DNA from: Fictibacillus sp. FJAT-27399
Lineage (GTDB): Bacteria; Bacillota; Bacilli; Bacillales; Fictibacillaceae
Direction of reading: 5' to 3'
DNA length: 64,000 bases
Assembly (NCBI RefSeq): GCF_001510655.1
Contig: NZ_LMVC01000004.1
Location: forward strand, 209,459-273,458
Shown here: positions 7,162-64,000 of the stretch, in pieces
Layout of the letters: the number at the start of each line of letters is the position of its first letter
How positions within the stretch are numbered: position 1 is the first letter of the stretch
Notes under the pieces: model-generated
Seen by the model: only the letters and a program-made list of their open reading frames with translations
Databases searched by the model: none
Told to the model about the DNA's origin: nothing
Program-made: the position numbers and the translations under genes

Positions 7162-8165
7162 TGATCAATCATTTGTTATCCTCGCCTCCAGGCTGGATCC
7201 ACGCGGCTGTCTTTTTTGGTTTAGGAGCCTGCCTGCTGGTTATTGTTCTCGGATTTGTAACGTATGCCATATTGGCGGAACGAAAAGTGCTCGGATTCAT
7301 GCAGCTCCGTCCAGGGCCGAACCGGGTCGGTGGACGCTTTGGCCTTCTGCAGACCGTTGCCGACGTACTGAAGCTATTGCTCAAGGAAGACACCATTCCA
7401 AAGCTGGCCGATAAACCGCTTTTTATTTTGGCGCCGGTTCTCGCTTTTGCTCCAGCTTTCATGGTGTTAGCGGCCATCCCTTTTTCTGATCATCTGAAGT
7501 TTTCCGACCTTAGCATCGGCCTATTGTATTACATAGCAATATCAGGTATTACTACGGTTGGGATCTTGATGGCCGGCTGGGCTTCCAACAATAAATACTC
7601 GCTCCTTGGGGGGATGAGATCTGCGGCACAGATGATATCGTATGAGATTCCGCTAGTCATCTCCGTGATCGGTGTCATCTTATTCAGCGGAAGCCTTAAC
7701 CTGACAGACATTGTAGAAGGCCAGGAAAAAGTAGCTTATATTTTTTTATCGCCGCTTGGCTTTATTGTATTTTTGATTTCCTCTATAGCGGAACTGAACC
7801 GTACACCGTTTGACTTGCCGGAAGCAGAATCCGAATTGGTTGCCGGCTATCACGTAGAGTATTCAGGATTTCGCTGGGCCTTCTTCATGCTTACGGAATA
7901 TGTGTATCTATTTGCAATGGCGTCACTAACGACTGTGCTGTTCCTTGGCGGATGGAAACCCATTCCGTTTTTAGGCTTCATTCCGGGCATCATCTGGTTT
8001 GCTTTGAAGTTCAGCCTGATCGTCTTCTTTATGATCTGGATCCGGGGAACAATGCCGCGCTTAAGGGCTGATCAGCTCATGGAGTTTGCCTGGAAGGTTC
8101 TTTTGCCGGTTGCTTTACTCAACATTTTTGTCAGTGCCGTCGTAAAAGAAATATTTTTAAGATAA
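7161..8165 (+). CDS. nuoH: NADH-quinone oxidoreductase subunit H
   Basis: The membrane subunit linking the peripheral arm to the pumping modules. The 334 residues contain about eight helices and the conserved loop ERKVLGFMQLRPGPNRVGG near residue 40, plus the loop AELNRTPFDLPEAESELVAGYH, which is diagnostic for NuoH and holds acidic residues of the quinone channel. The ATG overlaps the last base of nuoD and follows GGGGAGGTGG. A 71-bp gap separates it from nuoI. Confidence 0.97.
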   Translation: MINHLLSSPPGWIHAAVFFGLGACLLVIVLGFVTYAILAERKVLGFMQLRPGPNRVGGRFGLLQTVADVLKLLLKEDTIPKLADKPLFILAPVLAFAPAFMVLAAIPFSDHLKFSDLSIGLLYYIAISGITTVGILMAGWASNNKYSLLGGMRSAAQMISYEIPLVISVIGVILFSGSLNLTDIVEGQEKVAYIFLSPLGFIVFLISSIAELNRTPFDLPEAESELVAGYHVEYSGFRWAFFMLTEYVYLFAMASLTTVLFLGGWKPIPFLGFIPGIIWFALKFSLIVFFMIWIRGTMPRLRADQLMEFAWKVLLPVALLNIFVSAVVKEIFLR

Positions 8166-8236
8166 GTGCAGCGGACTTGTTTTCGCTCTTGCCCGCAATG
8201 CGAGTTTACTAGACTGCAAAAAAGGAGTGGTGTGAG

Positions 8237-12867: not shown

Positions 12868-14385
12868 ATGGATCTTCACACGTTAACTTCAATGAACTGG
12901 GGAATCATGGCGCCTGAATTTGCCATCTTGGGAACAGCTATTATCCTGTCTTTGCTGGACTTGTTTATGCCACGAACGCAAAGCCGCCGTCCTCTGGGGA
13001 TATTGGCCATTGCAGGAATAGCAGCGGCTTTCATTTTTTTATATCTGCAATTTGGACATGAAGGAGCATCACTTTTTCATGATATGTACCGGCTTGACTC
13101 CTTCTCGAAGGCGTTTAAGCTGATCCTTCTTTTGGGAACAGGGCTGATTTTAGTTTTAGCTTATGACTACCGGATGGGTGAAGAAGAAGAGTACCGTGGG
13201 GAATTCTACTATCTGCTGCTCACTGCTCTCCTTGGGGCCATGTTTATGGCTTCGAGCGGGGACATGATCACCCTGTTTATAGGCCTGGAGCTCCTTTCTC
13301 TTTCCTCCTATGTTATGGCAGGTATGAGAAAAAGAAAGTTGGAGTCGAATGAGGCTGCTTTTAAATATGTAGTAACAGGCGGGATTTCAACAGCCATCAC
13401 AATGTTTGGGATGAGCTATGTATTTGGGTTGACTGGGGAAACAAACCTGTATGCAGTAGGTGCAGCATTGAGAGATACGAGCATCCTTCAGAATCAGTTT
13501 TTACTCGTATTTGCTTTTTTTATCACATTTGCAGGGTTAACTTTCAAAATCGCCTCTGCTCCGTTTCATATGTGGGCACCCGATGTGTATCAAGGCTCAC
13601 CGCTTCCTGTTACCGCCTTTTTAAGCGTGGTCTCGAAAACAGCCGGATTTGCCATCATCCTGCGGTTTTTTCTCATGTGCTTTAGTTCAGCGCCCGGCAT
13701 TAAAGGAGATCCGCTGCTTCTTCAAGTTCAGCCGTATCTCGCTGTTCTCGCTGGAGCGACCATGATTGCCGGCAATGTGATCGCCCTCCGGCAGCGGAAC
13801 ATTAAACGGCTTTTCGCCTATTCGTCGGTTGCGCAGGCTGGTTATATTCTCGTTCCGTTCGTTTCCGTCTCGGCTTTGCTGTTTGAAACAACATGGTTTT
13901 ATCTTCTTGCCTATCTGTTTATGAATATTGGTGCTTTTGCTGTCATTCAGGAAGTAACAGCAGCGAGCGGGACGAATGATATATCGGGCTTTGCCGGCTT
14001 ATATAAGCGTTCTCCCTGGCTAGCTTTCGCCATGACCATCTTTATTCTGTCATTGGCGGGCATTCCGGCTACAGCAGGCTTTGCGGGGAAATTCGGAATC
14101 TTTATGAATGCCCTTGGAACCAACCCTGGACATTACATATTGGCAGGGATTCTAATGGCCGCCACGGTTGTCTCTTACTTCTATTATTTCAACATTATTG
14201 GCCAGATGTTTTTTCGCTCAGGGCAGGAAGAGCGGGCGATCCAGCATAAGAAGGGCCTCCTGTTTGTAACCGCTTTATGTGCAGCGGCAACCGTGTTCTT
14301 CGGTATCTTCCCGGGAACCGCCCTCCATTTCTTTTATAATGAATTTCATCTCACAGATTTTTTCCAGACATTAGGACAAAAATAA
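12868..14385 (+). CDS. nuoN: NADH-quinone oxidoreductase subunit N
   Basis: The third antiporter-like pump, 505 residues and about 14 helices. FIGLELLSLSSYVMAGMRKRKLESNEAAFKY marks the conserved Glu/Lys region and FHMWAPDVYQGSPLPVTAFLSVVSKTAGFA the helix 7-8 signature. It is the last gene of the operon. No nuoE, nuoF or nuoG follows, which is the Bacillus type of complex I without an NADH-oxidising module, so the electron donor is probably not NADH directly. The stop abuts repeat copy B, whose right end supplies a terminator. Confidence 0.96.
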   Translation: MDLHTLTSMNWGIMAPEFAILGTAIILSLLDLFMPRTQSRRPLGILAIAGIAAAFIFLYLQFGHEGASLFHDMYRLDSFSKAFKLILLLGTGLILVLAYDYRMGEEEEYRGEFYYLLLTALLGAMFMASSGDMITLFIGLELLSLSSYVMAGMRKRKLESNEAAFKYVVTGGISTAITMFGMSYVFGLTGETNLYAVGAALRDTSILQNQFLLVFAFFITFAGLTFKIASAPFHMWAPDVYQGSPLPVTAFLSVVSKTAGFAIILRFFLMCFSSAPGIKGDPLLLQVQPYLAVLAGATMIAGNVIALRQRNIKRLFAYSSVAQAGYILVPFVSVSALLFETTWFYLLAYLFMNIGAFAVIQEVTAASGTNDISGFAGLYKRSPWLAFAMTIFILSLAGIPATAGFAGKFGIFMNALGTNPGHYILAGILMAATVVSYFYYFNIIGQMFFRSGQEERAIQHKKGLLFVTALCAAATVFFGIFPGTALHFFYNEFHLTDFFQTLGQK

Positions 14386-14637
14386 GGGGGCTGTCCAAGA
14401 AGTCTGGTAGCTGTTGATCTCCGCTCCAGGCTGCTCGCTTTCCGCGGGGCGTGCGGTGAGCCTTACCGGCGTGAACGCCTACTTTTTGGCGCAAGCGCCT
14501 GCGGGAGTCTCACCTGTCACGCTAGTCCCGCAGGAGTCTCGCACCTTGCACTCCAATCAACTTTTCATTGAAGATTTTTCACGTCAAAGGAGCTGCCTGA
14601 AGGTCAATTTTCGACTTTCAGGACAGCCCCTTTTTTT
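14386..14637 (+). repeat. GCTCGC-core interspersed element, copy B
   Basis: This copy starts immediately after the nuoN stop with GGGGGCTGTCC and ends GGACAGCCCC plus seven T, so the ends are inverted repeats. Inside lies the shared core (GCTCGCTTTCCGCGGGGCG to CACTCCAATCAAC). The last 60 bp form a strong hairpin and T run. The open frame across it is an artefact. The remaining 14638-14818 before ywzB shows nothing I can name. Confidence 0.8.
14588..14637 (+). terminator. Terminator of the nuo operon, supplied by element B
   Basis: GGAGCTGCCTGAAGGTC pairs (with G-T pairs) with GACTTTCAGGACAGCCCC around AATTTTC, followed by TTTTTTT. The same hairpin recurs at 63550-63600. It is the only terminator-like structure after nuoN. 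Confidence 0.8.
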
Positions 14638-28726: not shown

Positions 28727-28967
28727 AAAAAAAGGCTGTTTGTAACCATTGTTGCTCTTAGGAGTGGTTGATTTCCGTTTCAGGATGCTCGCTTTCCTCG
28801 GGACGGGCGGTGAGCCTTACCGGCGCAAGCGCCTACCTCCTCGGCGCATGGCGCCTGTGGGTCTCCACCTGTCCCGCATCTCCCGCAGGAGTCTCGCACC
28901 TGGCACTCCAATCAACATGTAATGAAGGCTCTTTTCCCAAAGCCTTTTAGAACGGCCTTTAAAAAAG
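28727..28967 (+). repeat. GCTCGC-core interspersed element, copy C
   Basis: The core reads GTTGATTTCCGTTTCAGG, GCTCGCTTTCC and CCCGCAGGAGTCTCGCACCT to CTCCAATCAAC. The left flank TTGTTGCTCTTAGG matches copy A, while the AAAAAGGCTGTTT / AACGGCCTTTAAAAA ends are degenerate inverted repeats. The open frame at 28768-28950 is an artefact. The rest of 28573-28727 holds the asnB upstream region with four near-tandem GTTTAC/GTTAAC hexamers. Confidence 0.75.
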
Positions 28968-61829: not shown

Positions 61830-61967
61830 CTATCTTTGCACCCGTTCGGCCAGGGACAGGATGGAGTGGTTCAGTGTATCCAATTTGCCTTCGATCCGGT
61901 GCAGAAGATACAGCGTCACCACCACTGGAAAGCCAACATCGCTTACGAAAGAGAGCCACGACTCCAT
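61830..61967 (-). CDS. YvrJ family protein
   Basis: A 45-residue protein from an ATG behind ATAGGAGGTTATTAAA. It begins MESWLSFVSDVGFPVVVTLY, which reads as one membrane helix (about 5-22), followed by LLHRIEGKLDTLNHSILSLAERV, an amphipathic helix. This is the YvrJ pattern. The function is unknown. It is the last gene of a three-gene set with DUF2922 and DUF1659 and was found by translating the region directly. Confidence 0.85.
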   Translation of the reverse strand: MESWLSFVSDVGFPVVVTLYLLHRIEGKLDTLNHSILSLAERVQR

Positions 61968-62039
61968 TTTAATAACCTCCTATAAGCAGGATACCCCAAC
62001 CAGCAAGACGGCCGATTGGGGTTTGTTCATACTGCGCTG

Positions 62040-62258
62040 TTATGGAAGAACGATATCGCTTGAAGTGCGGTCCGTGACGCGGGCGCCCTTCTTCTTCACA
62101 TAATCTCCGCCGTTCGAAACGAAGACTTTCTGGGCGATGATGGTATCCATGGCGGCTTTGACAGCGGCCGGATCCACTGGTTCTTTCGGAGCATCAAGGG
62201 AAATCGTCACCATTTTGTCCTGTTCGTTAAGGAACTGCAATTCCAACGTTTTAGCCAT
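62040..62258 (-). CDS. DUF2922 protein
   Basis: A 72-residue protein: AKTLELQFLNEQDKMVTISLDAPKEPVDPAAVKAAMDTII with the typical DUF2922 beginning, then GDYVKKKGARVTDRTSSDIVL. The function is unknown. It follows the DUF1659 gene by 48 bp. A hairpin (ACCCCAA/TTGGGGT at 61992-62022) without a T run separates it from yvrJ. The ATG follows AAAGGAGGAT. Confidence 0.9.
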   Translation of the reverse strand: MAKTLELQFLNEQDKMVTISLDAPKEPVDPAAVKAAMDTIIAQKVFVSNGGDYVKKKGARVTDRTSSDIVLP

Positions 62259-62306
62259 ATTAGTATCCTCCTTTCCATAGAATCATGCCTGGTTTTTCAT
62301 AGTCTT

Positions 62307-62522
62307 TTACGCATAAATGCTGTGTGAGTCATTGCGTTCAACAGAGATTAAAGGCAGCTGCTGAAGAGGGGAAAGAGCGTTTGCTACCGCATAAAGCTGA
62401 TCAGCCGAAGCAGAGGTTTTTACGTTGGAAAAATTTTTGTTTTTGTACAGCTGCTTATCGCCATCCATCCCTGCATCAAACACCATGCGAAGCTGTGTAT
62501 CCTGGATTGCTGTGGTTGCCAT
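62307..62522 (-). CDS. DUF1659 protein
   Basis: A 71-residue protein starting at ATG 62522 (MATTAIQDTQLRMVFDAGMD), eight bases after AAAGGAGG; the codons upstream overlap the ribosome site. KNKNFSNVKTSASADQLYAVANALSPLQ is the family core. Its function is unknown. It is divergent from the sigma-factor gene and first of the DUF1659-DUF2922-YvrJ set. Confidence 0.9.
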   Translation of the reverse strand: MATTAIQDTQLRMVFDAGMDGDKQLYKNKNFSNVKTSASADQLYAVANALSPLQQLPLISVERNDSHSIYA

Positions 62523-62784
62523 GTCCATCACCTCCTTTCACCTATAAATAGCAAGTTCCGTGAAAAAAGAGGCATCTCTATAAAAAACAAATGAAAATAA
62601 CCAAACCCCTAATCATGACCTTTTGAAAACCTCCATTACCCCTCTCGAAAACATCATTTTCGCCCCTTTTACCCGTACGGTTTTGCCCTTTTGATCATAT
62701 GACAGCATGAAAACGGAGCTTTATGTTTAGATTACCGGCGGAATAAAACGTAAGGCACGTGTCTTTTTTAAAGGATGAAATAAG

Positions 62785-63291
62785 ATGAAAACCAGTTTCG
62801 AAAATCTCTCTCTTCAGTTCGATCCCTTGATTAAATCGCAAATCCAGTCCCTTGGTGTTACCGGGCGTTACGATGAGTATTACCAAGTAGGACTTATTGG
62901 TCTTTGGGAAGCATTCAAACGGTTTGACCAAAATAAAGGAGACTTTGGTCCATTTGCCTATCGAACGGTTAGAGGAAAAATGCTCGAGCAACTAAAAAAG
63001 GAAGCCAAATATAAAGCCTTTCATGTCGGGTTCAGCCTGGAGCTTACAGAAACCATACCTTTTGAAGGGGGCGTTCTTCCCCTTGAAAATGAAGTATTGG
63101 AGATGTATCTGTCAGATTTGACCCTGAACCAGCGGAAATGGGTGGTTAAAAAGATTTTTCTCCAGATGAAAGAAGCCGAAATTGCAGAGGAAGAGGGAGT
63201 GAGCATACACGCCGTAAAATCATGGAGAAAGCAAGCTCTATTGAAGCTTAGAAGCCGGGCAGAACGGCATGATATTTACCAGCGGAAATGA
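62785..63291 (+). CDS. Small sigma-70 family RNA polymerase sigma factor
   Basis: A 168-residue alternative sigma factor with region 2 (DEYYQVGLIGLWEAFKRFDQNKGDFGPFAYRTVRGKM, residues 31-68) and region 4 with a helix-turn-helix (MKEAEIAEEEGVSIHAVKSWRKQALLKLRS). No anti-sigma gene is adjacent. The size and the divergent cassette suggest it drives the DUF1659 set (inference). The ATG follows AAAGGATGAAATAAG, a weak-to-moderate site. Confidence 0.88.
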   Translation: MKTSFENLSLQFDPLIKSQIQSLGVTGRYDEYYQVGLIGLWEAFKRFDQNKGDFGPFAYRTVRGKMLEQLKKEAKYKAFHVGFSLELTETIPFEGGVLPLENEVLEMYLSDLTLNQRKWVVKKIFLQMKEAEIAEEEGVSIHAVKSWRKQALLKLRSRAERHDIYQRK

Positions 63292-63330: not shown

Positions 63331-63380
63331 GAATGTTATATAAACTTTCGACATCTCAGCACTGACCAAAATATACAAAA

Positions 63381-63600
63381 AAGGGGCTGTCCAAGAAGTC
63401 TGCAAGCTTTTGATTTCCGTTCCAGGCTGCTCGCTTTCCGCAGGGCGTGCGGTGAGCCTTACCGGCGTGAACGCCTACTTTTTGGTGCAAGCACCGGAGT
63501 CCCGCATCTTCCACTTCAAATAACTTTTTATTGAAGATTTTTCAAGCCAAAAAGGGGCTGCCTGAAGGTCAATTTTCGACTTTCTGGACAGCCCCTTTCC
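63381..63600 (+). repeat. GCTCGC-core interspersed element, copy D (internally deleted)
   Basis: It starts AAGGGGCTGTCCAAGAAGTC and ends CTTTCTGGACAGCCCCTT, the same inverted ends as copy B. Between GGTGCAAGCACC and GGAGTCCCGCATCTTCC the core is shorter than in copy B. The right-hand hairpin (from 63550) faces the MFS gene on the minus strand, with CCCCTTTTTGG in that direction, and so probably terminates it. Confidence 0.8.
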
Positions 63601-64000
63601 TTATTTCTTCACTGTTCTTCGTTCCAACGCTCCGCTCCATGCAGAGAGCAGGACAGCACCGACGACCATCAGTCCGCCAACCCATGGCGTATGAATCAAG
63701 CCGATGGAATCGACGACAAGTCCGCCGACGTAGGCACCGATTGCGATCCCGACATTAAACGCTGCAATGTTGATGGCAGAAGCCACATCGACAGCAGATG
63801 GAACATATTTTTCAGCCAGTTGCACAACATATACCTGCAAGCCAGGCACATTCATAAACGCAAACAGTCCCATGATGACGATCGTTACTGTACCGGCCAC
63901 TTTTAGAGGAGCGGTAAAGAAAAGAACAAACATTACGATGGCCTGGATAACAAACATCCAAAGCAAGGCACGGATTGGATTCTTGTTTGCTGCTTTTCCT
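63601..64000 (-). CDS. MFS transporter, C-terminal part (5' end outside window)
   Basis: About 133 residues of a major-facilitator permease; the frame is open to the window edge, and the visible part begins GKAANKNPIRALLWM. Three to four helices are seen, with the segment ASAINIAAFNVGIAIGAYVGG near the middle, typical of DHA1-type drug or sugar efflux carriers (AraJ/YdhP-like), and the end AWSGALERRTVKK. The substrate is unknown. The stop codon touches repeat copy D, which supplies its terminator. Confidence 0.88.
   Translation of the reverse strand, partial: GKAANKNPIRALLWMFVIQAIVMFVLFFTAPLKVAGTVTIVIMGLFAFMNVPGLQVYVVQLAEKYVPSAVDVASAINIAAFNVGIAIGAYVGGLVVDSIGLIHTPWVGGLMVVGAVLLSAWSGALERRTVKK

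Follow-up and report, generated by a model that had tools for sequence, protein, structure and literature searches.

The window analysed here is a 64,000-nucleotide stretch of the genome of Fictibacillus sp. FJAT-27399. Between positions 61830 and 63291 it carries a cassette of three very small genes, read leftwards in the order DUF1659-DUF2922-yvrJ, and, divergent from it, a gene for a small sigma-70 factor (hereafter SIG), read rightwards. The locus comprises the following features:

61830–61967, minus strand: yvrJ, 45 aa, small holin-like membrane protein with one helix, judged by eye (Pfam PF12841, E = 1.4e-16)
62040–62258, minus strand: DUF2922 gene, 72 aa (Pfam PF11148, E = 1.3e-27)
62307–62522, minus strand: DUF1659 gene, 71 aa (Pfam PF07872, E = 4.4e-24)
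62543–62572, minus strand: promoter-like element of the cassette (upstream block 62563–62572, 11 bp, downstream block 62543–62551)
62699–62727, plus strand: SigA-like promoter of the SIG gene, by eye (ATGACA at 62699–62704, 17 bp, TATGTT at 62722–62727)
62733–62775, plus strand: 5' leader of the SIG mRNA (TACCGGCGGAATA, palindrome at 62752–62765, then AAAGGA at 62770–62775)
62785–63291, plus strand: SIG, sigma-70 factor gene with regions 2 and 4, 168 aa

This agrees with the first-pass annotation of the same DNA in the divergent arrangement and in the lengths of the four proteins. The start of DUF1659 was best placed at 62522 (71 aa, preceded by a strong Shine-Dalgarno sequence), the alternative listed being a 74-aa frame with a GTG start at 62531. 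Both sigma regions were recognised by Pfam (Sigma70_r2, E = 5.8e-11; r4_2, E = 1.7e-7). DUF1659 and DUF2922 are each single-copy in the host genome. A second, longer YvrJ (78 aa; L002, 1465–1701) stands without the cassette in the same genome and, by eye, has no element upstream.

A small-gene cassette widespread in Bacillota

DUF1659 was present in all 34 genomes of the family, in 257 of the 279 genomes of the order and in 172 of 348 genomes of the phylum. Among 14 control genomes, Thermotoga maritima had DUF1659 and DUF2922, and Bacillus subtilis YvrJ only. We inspected two sets of loci outside the order, 29 picked to span families and 30 corresponding to the best-scoring DUF1659 loci of the phylum (48 genomes altogether, 11 of them common to both sets). 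DUF2922 lay near DUF1659 on the same strand in 29/29 and 29/30 of them, and YvrJ in 23/29 and 28/30. Since the cassette is kept on one strand in nearly all these loci, its grouping is not due to chance. One locus of the order (L184, 7098–11133) contains the cassette, an inverted SIG and, ~3 kb further, a second DUF2922-YvrJ pair. In a passage of one paper, DUF1659 is grouped among endospore domains (PMC2955703); in the open-access PMC literature we found no mention of DUF2922, while DUF1659 is named in one paper and YvrJ in five.

The YvrJ of the window matched the PHROG family phrog_4898, annotated as 'holin' (E = 7.4e-4), a family matched by 17 of 17 YvrJ scanned (E <= 0.1, best 1e-8). Among the Pfam holin families, XhlA alone was detected, weakly, in two of the 17 (best E = 0.0064), and no BhlA match was listed for them at E <= 5, a search in which filters can drop weak matches. 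DUF2922 and DUF1659 matched phrog_21372 (E = 1.9e-10) and phrog_20302 (E = 1.7e-5), respectively, both of unknown function, suggesting that some phages carry relatives. The predicted structures of the two proteins have the same beta-beta-alpha-beta order (pLDDT 76 for DUF2922 and 88.7 for DUF1659), despite which we rejected them as sequence paralogues (hhalign probability 0.6%). A phage origin was likewise considered and rejected: tblastn searches of 50,697 phage records returned nothing for any of the queries (two DUF2922, one YvrJ and one DUF1659), and two scans of viral contigs with DUF2922 detected no relative, although the PHROG matches of DUF2922 and DUF1659 speak against this rejection. 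None of the four proteins of the locus matched the PADLOC anti-phage defence models at E <= 0.01.

The sigma factor and the sequences upstream of DUF1659 and SIG

The best NCBIfam profile for SIG was NF005248 (PRK06759, 'RNA polymerase factor sigma-70'), whose name carries no function. The window protein scored 121.8 bits, below the cut-off of 133 and thus short of the membership score, and the profile matched all 18 SIG scanned (best E = 7.2e-42). The named relatives found with the SIG alignment came from Fictibacillus in 16 of 19 cases; in three from other organisms (L116, L119 and L120) the cassette was not found within 1–4 kb around SIG. The alignments comprised 36/47 (A2) and 38/46 (A3) non-redundant sequences and, for A6, 17/28 SIG plus the window protein. 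In Fictibacillus solisalsi the SIG gene is split over two frames (L107, 3971–4493).

SIG was detected in 246 of the 279 order genomes (E <= 1e-15), in a search that scored up to 13 candidates per genome, so that SIG-negative calls may include missed SIGs. The first-pass annotation stated that these families co-occur in Bacillaceae, and in this tally DUF1659 and SIG indeed did: 241 genomes had both, 17 neither, 16 only DUF1659 and five only SIG, with an odds ratio of ~51 that, the genomes being related, is no probability. Joint absences, where the family was printed, were spread over six families (f2, f145, f148, f3, f135 and f162). In an earlier, fully scored search, a strong SIG accompanied DUF1659 in 36 of 36 genomes, and two genomes without DUF1659 had weak sigma matches only. 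The genes are also linked. Within the family, SIG and the cassette sit side by side in divergent orientation in 24 of 34 genomes, and in all eight of genus g4 they lie ~7–10 kb apart. In the rest of the order, SIG lies within 5 kb of the cassette in at least eight genomes, some with genes between, counted among the pairs with both positions listed and hence not a rate. Orientation is convergent in L184 and L185, whose genomes have a second SIG elsewhere, divergent in L186 and L189, and codirectional in L187, L188, L190 and L191.

Upstream of DUF1659 we found a two-block element, approximately CCCCTTTT-N13-CTATATATA, that is conserved in the family and the order and ends ~20 nt before the start codon (20 nt in the window). 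A matrix trained on 38 cassettes of the order (nCCCCTTTT, usually 13 nt, CTATATATA) was applied to 33 held-out cassettes of the family, 16 of which reached the 95% level of shuffled sequences (9.2) and nine the 99% level (11.2). The 17 below the level all belong to the g2 branch of Fictibacillus, where the second block is approximately GAACTTATGA and where SIG has diverged too (~41% identity to the window protein). The form of the element in Fictibacillus is CCTCYTTTTT-N11-CTAYTTATR. A pairing of the CCTCC block with the DUF1659 ribosome site in an RNA hairpin was tried and set aside: the fold forms (no shuffled control), and a promoter element of fixed spacing seemed the better reading. Autoregulation of SIG through the element was rejected, as only five of 54 SIG upstream regions reached the shuffled 95% level.

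Linkage, co-absence and the conserved element suggest that SIG directs RNA polymerase to this CCCCTTTT/CTATATATA-type promoter before DUF1659-DUF2922-YvrJ. Alternatively, another sigma factor might read the element, SIG being merely an old neighbour. Ancestral linkage, of which several SIG-DUF1659 pairs ~34 kb apart in order genomes could be a trace, might hold both together, and the element is kept in four or five genomes scored as SIG-negative. Of the 16 upstream regions scored in 15 of the 16 genomes with DUF1659 but no detected SIG (G580 had no scorable region), five score at or above the 95% level (those of G629, G622 and G487 and two from G555), and G535 has a related element by eye, below the matrix level. 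However, the element could not be recognised in G421, G628, G582 or G482 and is altered in six genomes of genus g257, all of these genomes being scored SIG-negative; together with the joint absences in several families and the varied close arrangements of the two genes, this makes control by another sigma factor rather unlikely.

The SIG gene itself appears to start from a SigA-type promoter. A leader core, ACC-n-GGAA, stands at the start of 50 of 52 distinct segments (L171 and L119 vary; no leader was obtained for L122). In 43 of the 52 leaders the end of the best SigA-like -10 box lies exactly 6 nt ahead of this core, a position that would place the core at the 5' end of the mRNA. A near-perfect palindrome follows just ahead of the ribosome site, its centre 11–17 nt after the core; 46 of these palindromes are significant at p <= 0.05 when compared with shuffled sequences of identical base composition. 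The predicted hairpin covaries, with at least two Watson-Crick pair types at each of the seven innermost positions, and its G-T/T-G pairs outnumber other mismatches (23 versus 6), as expected of RNA pairing, although the scoring gives an advantage to G-T and each sequence had its centre chosen separately. In a MAFFT alignment of the leader the palindrome centre was shifted between rows. No Rfam family reached its gathering score for the SIG leader. In 1.16 Mb of DNA (78 sources >7 kb) the core occurred 57 times, 32 of them at flagged SIG leaders; eight of the other 25 had a palindrome score >=6, six being by eye SIG leaders with a frame running further upstream and two lying elsewhere. The SIG mRNA might thus be controlled via a structured 5' leader, which, if true, would be a new regulatory RNA. 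Pairing between two parts of the leader was rejected, since by eye their variants do not covary with each other. The core ACC-n-GG (window 62734–62743) is itself a small variable palindrome (CCGCGG, CCGGCGG, CCTAGG or CCCGGG), too short to fold alone.

An amidase and other genes associated with the cassette

We searched the Fictibacillus form of the element in seven genomes, allowing up to three mismatches. In most genomes the reversed control gave similar totals (49 versus 42 in the genome of the window, 43 versus 51 in G019, 49 versus 23 in G022), so that most hits are due to chance and only the best are informative. Among the best non-cassette hits, the same Amidase_2 gene lay downstream in five of the six genomes searched in genus g1, that of the window, with no mismatch in L225, one in L231 and L235, and two in L243 and L248; no element was seen before the amidase among the part of the G022 hits that was fetched. 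The CTATTTATA block is part of the element both before the cassette and before the amidase gene, and the similarity upstream of the amidase extends past the pattern (CTACTTATAGGTRAAAGG in several genomes). The protein of the window's genome (G000:C1:140238-140903) has an Amidase_2 domain and a SPOR domain just above the cut-off, and matches an endolysin PHROG (E = 8.2e-30); the L225 product is shorter, apparently without SPOR. Among 60 genomes, only the four Fictibacillus had a full-length orthologue. Out of sample, the amidase orthologues of genus g2 had one, zero and four mismatches to the g1/g2 cassette pattern (L254, L255 and L256), compared with three to eight for 14 other, related amidases; no placement was possible for two more, L263 and L271. 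In L248 and L254–L256 the CTCYTTTTT half overlaps, by eye, the intrinsic terminator of the preceding gene and may be a coincidence there, though this overlap explains neither the downstream half nor the GGTRAAAGG after it.

In Fictibacillus, SIG may therefore also read a promoter before this distant N-acetylmuramoyl-L-alanine amidase gene. The first-pass annotation had suggested that the sigma factor and its small partners form a self-contained regulatory system. The proposed tie between sigma factor and cassette gains from their linkage, their co-absence and the conserved element; the self-containment finds no support, as the apparent regulon extends beyond the locus to the amidase.

In other Bacillota, YvrJ is often followed by an amidase of this type. 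Of the loci outside the order, seven of 29 had an Amidase_2-type gene on the same strand as the cassette at up to 3 kb, and 10 of 30 at up to 1.5 kb; one more lay within 3 kb on the opposite strand, and none 3–8 kb away (0/29). A ComK-like gene was near the cassette in 10/29 and 7/30 of these loci (1/29 at 3–8 kb), and a sigma gene in 4/29 and 6/30 (1/29 at 3–8 kb). The flanking-gene profiles behind these counts were built from some of the same loci; two of them have Amidase_2 and three have sigma domains confirmed by Pfam. No amidase of this kind and no ComK-like gene was found within 8 kb of the cassette in 22 loci of the order. In L216, cassette, amidase and ComK-like gene occur together.

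The ComK-like gene makes a link with competence a live rival: SIG and the ComK-like regulators would be competence-type switches, and the holin and amidase would serve DNA release, DNA uptake or the killing of sister cells. A profile of nine proteins encoded after YvrJ in many Bacillota finds the ComK of the window's own genome (E = 6.8e-8, 31.4 bits) as well as the genes beside the cassette in L216 and L219, both from genomes of the order in which SIG was not detected, and in L098 a DprA gene lies directly downstream of DUF1659-DUF2922 (DUF1659 at 7959–8183, minus strand; the genome has four DUF1659 matches). Nevertheless, the DprA case is single, and the matches of individual proteins to Pfam ComK (PF06338) are weak: 16.2 and 12.9 bits (E = 0.0089 and 0.093) against a cut-off of 22.3, and none in two of four. 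Furthermore, homology to ComK does not fix the target genes, the comK upstream region of the window's genome is without the element, and the B. subtilis control has ComK but lacks the cassette. We thus regard a role in competence as improbable.

A candidate envelope-opening module

From these sequence comparisons, we give about even chances to SIG being a dedicated alternative sigma factor that drives a holin/endolysin-like module with DUF1659 and DUF2922 as cargo or helpers. YvrJ would be a one-helix holin-like protein, possibly pore-forming, which together with the endolysin-like amidase would open membrane and wall in a lytic or non-lytic manner, and DUF1659 and DUF2922 might be exported or help in export. 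The apparent joint control by SIG of the three small genes, one of them holin-like, and of a distant amidase suggests an old, widespread and uncharacterised envelope-opening programme, and not a sigma factor paired with a dedicated inhibitor.

That last possibility, one of the small proteins acting as anti-sigma factor or co-factor of SIG, had been raised in the first-pass annotation and found little support. The proteins are small and encoded by divergent neighbours of SIG, and the nearest structural neighbours of the DUF1659 and DUF2922 models are small phage proteins with non-significant scores (phi29 p6, p56 and T7 Gp2). T7 Gp2 is an inhibitor of RNA polymerase, but its VIA Z values with the DUF2922 and DUF1659 models (4.2 and 4.4) are within noise, and neither model had a Foldseek hit at E <= 0.001 in the databases searched. 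No match to anti-sigma families was found for the three small proteins. Moreover, the cassette occurs in 16 order genomes in which no SIG was found (some may have been missed) and, outside the order, where SIG was not searched, the flanking gene is often ComK-like or codes for a different sigma factor, and in other loci no regulator is recognised nearby. In genus g2, SIG is near the cassette although YvrJ was not found there, and the SIG leader offers another control point. We therefore consider a dedicated inhibitor or co-factor quite improbable. It is very improbable that DUF1659 and DUF2922 are small nucleic-acid-associated proteins of a module that packages or releases DNA: the top neighbour of the DUF1659 model is phi29 p6 (Foldseek E = 0.035, VIA Z 5.6 over 60 residues, 2.9 A) and its top BFVD hit is named double-strand binding protein (E = 0.014), but all these scores are below significance and a common small fold shows no function.

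The envelope-opening module would resemble several known systems. Phage and PBSX-type lysis cassettes consist of a holin plus an endolysin, and the holin-like YvrJ and the amidase, with their holin and endolysin PHROG matches, recall this pair; unlike in a phage, the surroundings of both the cassette and the amidase in the window's genome look chromosomal by eye, not prophage-like. The module would also be built like the UviA-UviB-amidase set of clostridial Bcn5-type bacteriocin loci (PMC9527704). There, a bacteriocin without Sec signal is accompanied by a sigma factor, an N-acetylmuramoyl-L-alanine amidase and a BhlA-family holin with one helix, and its release has been discussed as either lytic or non-lytic. 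Here a sigma factor, a holin-like protein with one helix and an amidase would likewise go together with small products that lack a Sec signal. In contrast to that set, the module is chromosomal and order-wide, YvrJ forms its own Pfam family, the amidase is unlinked in Fictibacillus, DUF1659 and DUF2922 take the place of the bacteriocin, and some members of the phylum have a ComK-like gene instead of the sigma gene. As no BhlA match was listed for YvrJ and the release of a cargo is putative, we do not file the module as a member of that group. In Bacillus subtilis, yvrJ is transcribed by the alternative sigma factor SigO-RsoA (PMC8103513), which likewise ties yvrJ to an alternative sigma factor; SigO-RsoA is split in two subunits, whereas SIG has both domains in one protein, and neither DUF1659 nor DUF2922 turned up in the B. 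subtilis control genome.

More tentatively, the module might be a Bacillota-wide chromosomal export system that opens the envelope, with DUF1659 and DUF2922 as substrates or adaptors, a regulator exchanged between sigma and ComK-like types, and a sigma factor gated by an undescribed RNA leader; we consider this wider scheme possible but doubtful. If true, holin-dependent secretion would no longer be confined to toxin and bacteriocin loci but would include a core system of the chromosome. Tied to a sigma factor, a promoter-like element and a cell-wall amidase, DUF1659, DUF2922 and YvrJ, widespread families without known role, can now be placed in a testable envelope-opening hypothesis with named genes of environmental bacteria.

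Finally, a MITE-like repeat of ~220 bp with inverted ends (AAAGGGGCTGTCC...GGACAGCCCCTTT) lies just past the SIG gene (window 63379–63602); another copy is found at 14384–14633, a partial one at 28768–28836, and pieces occur in L002 too.
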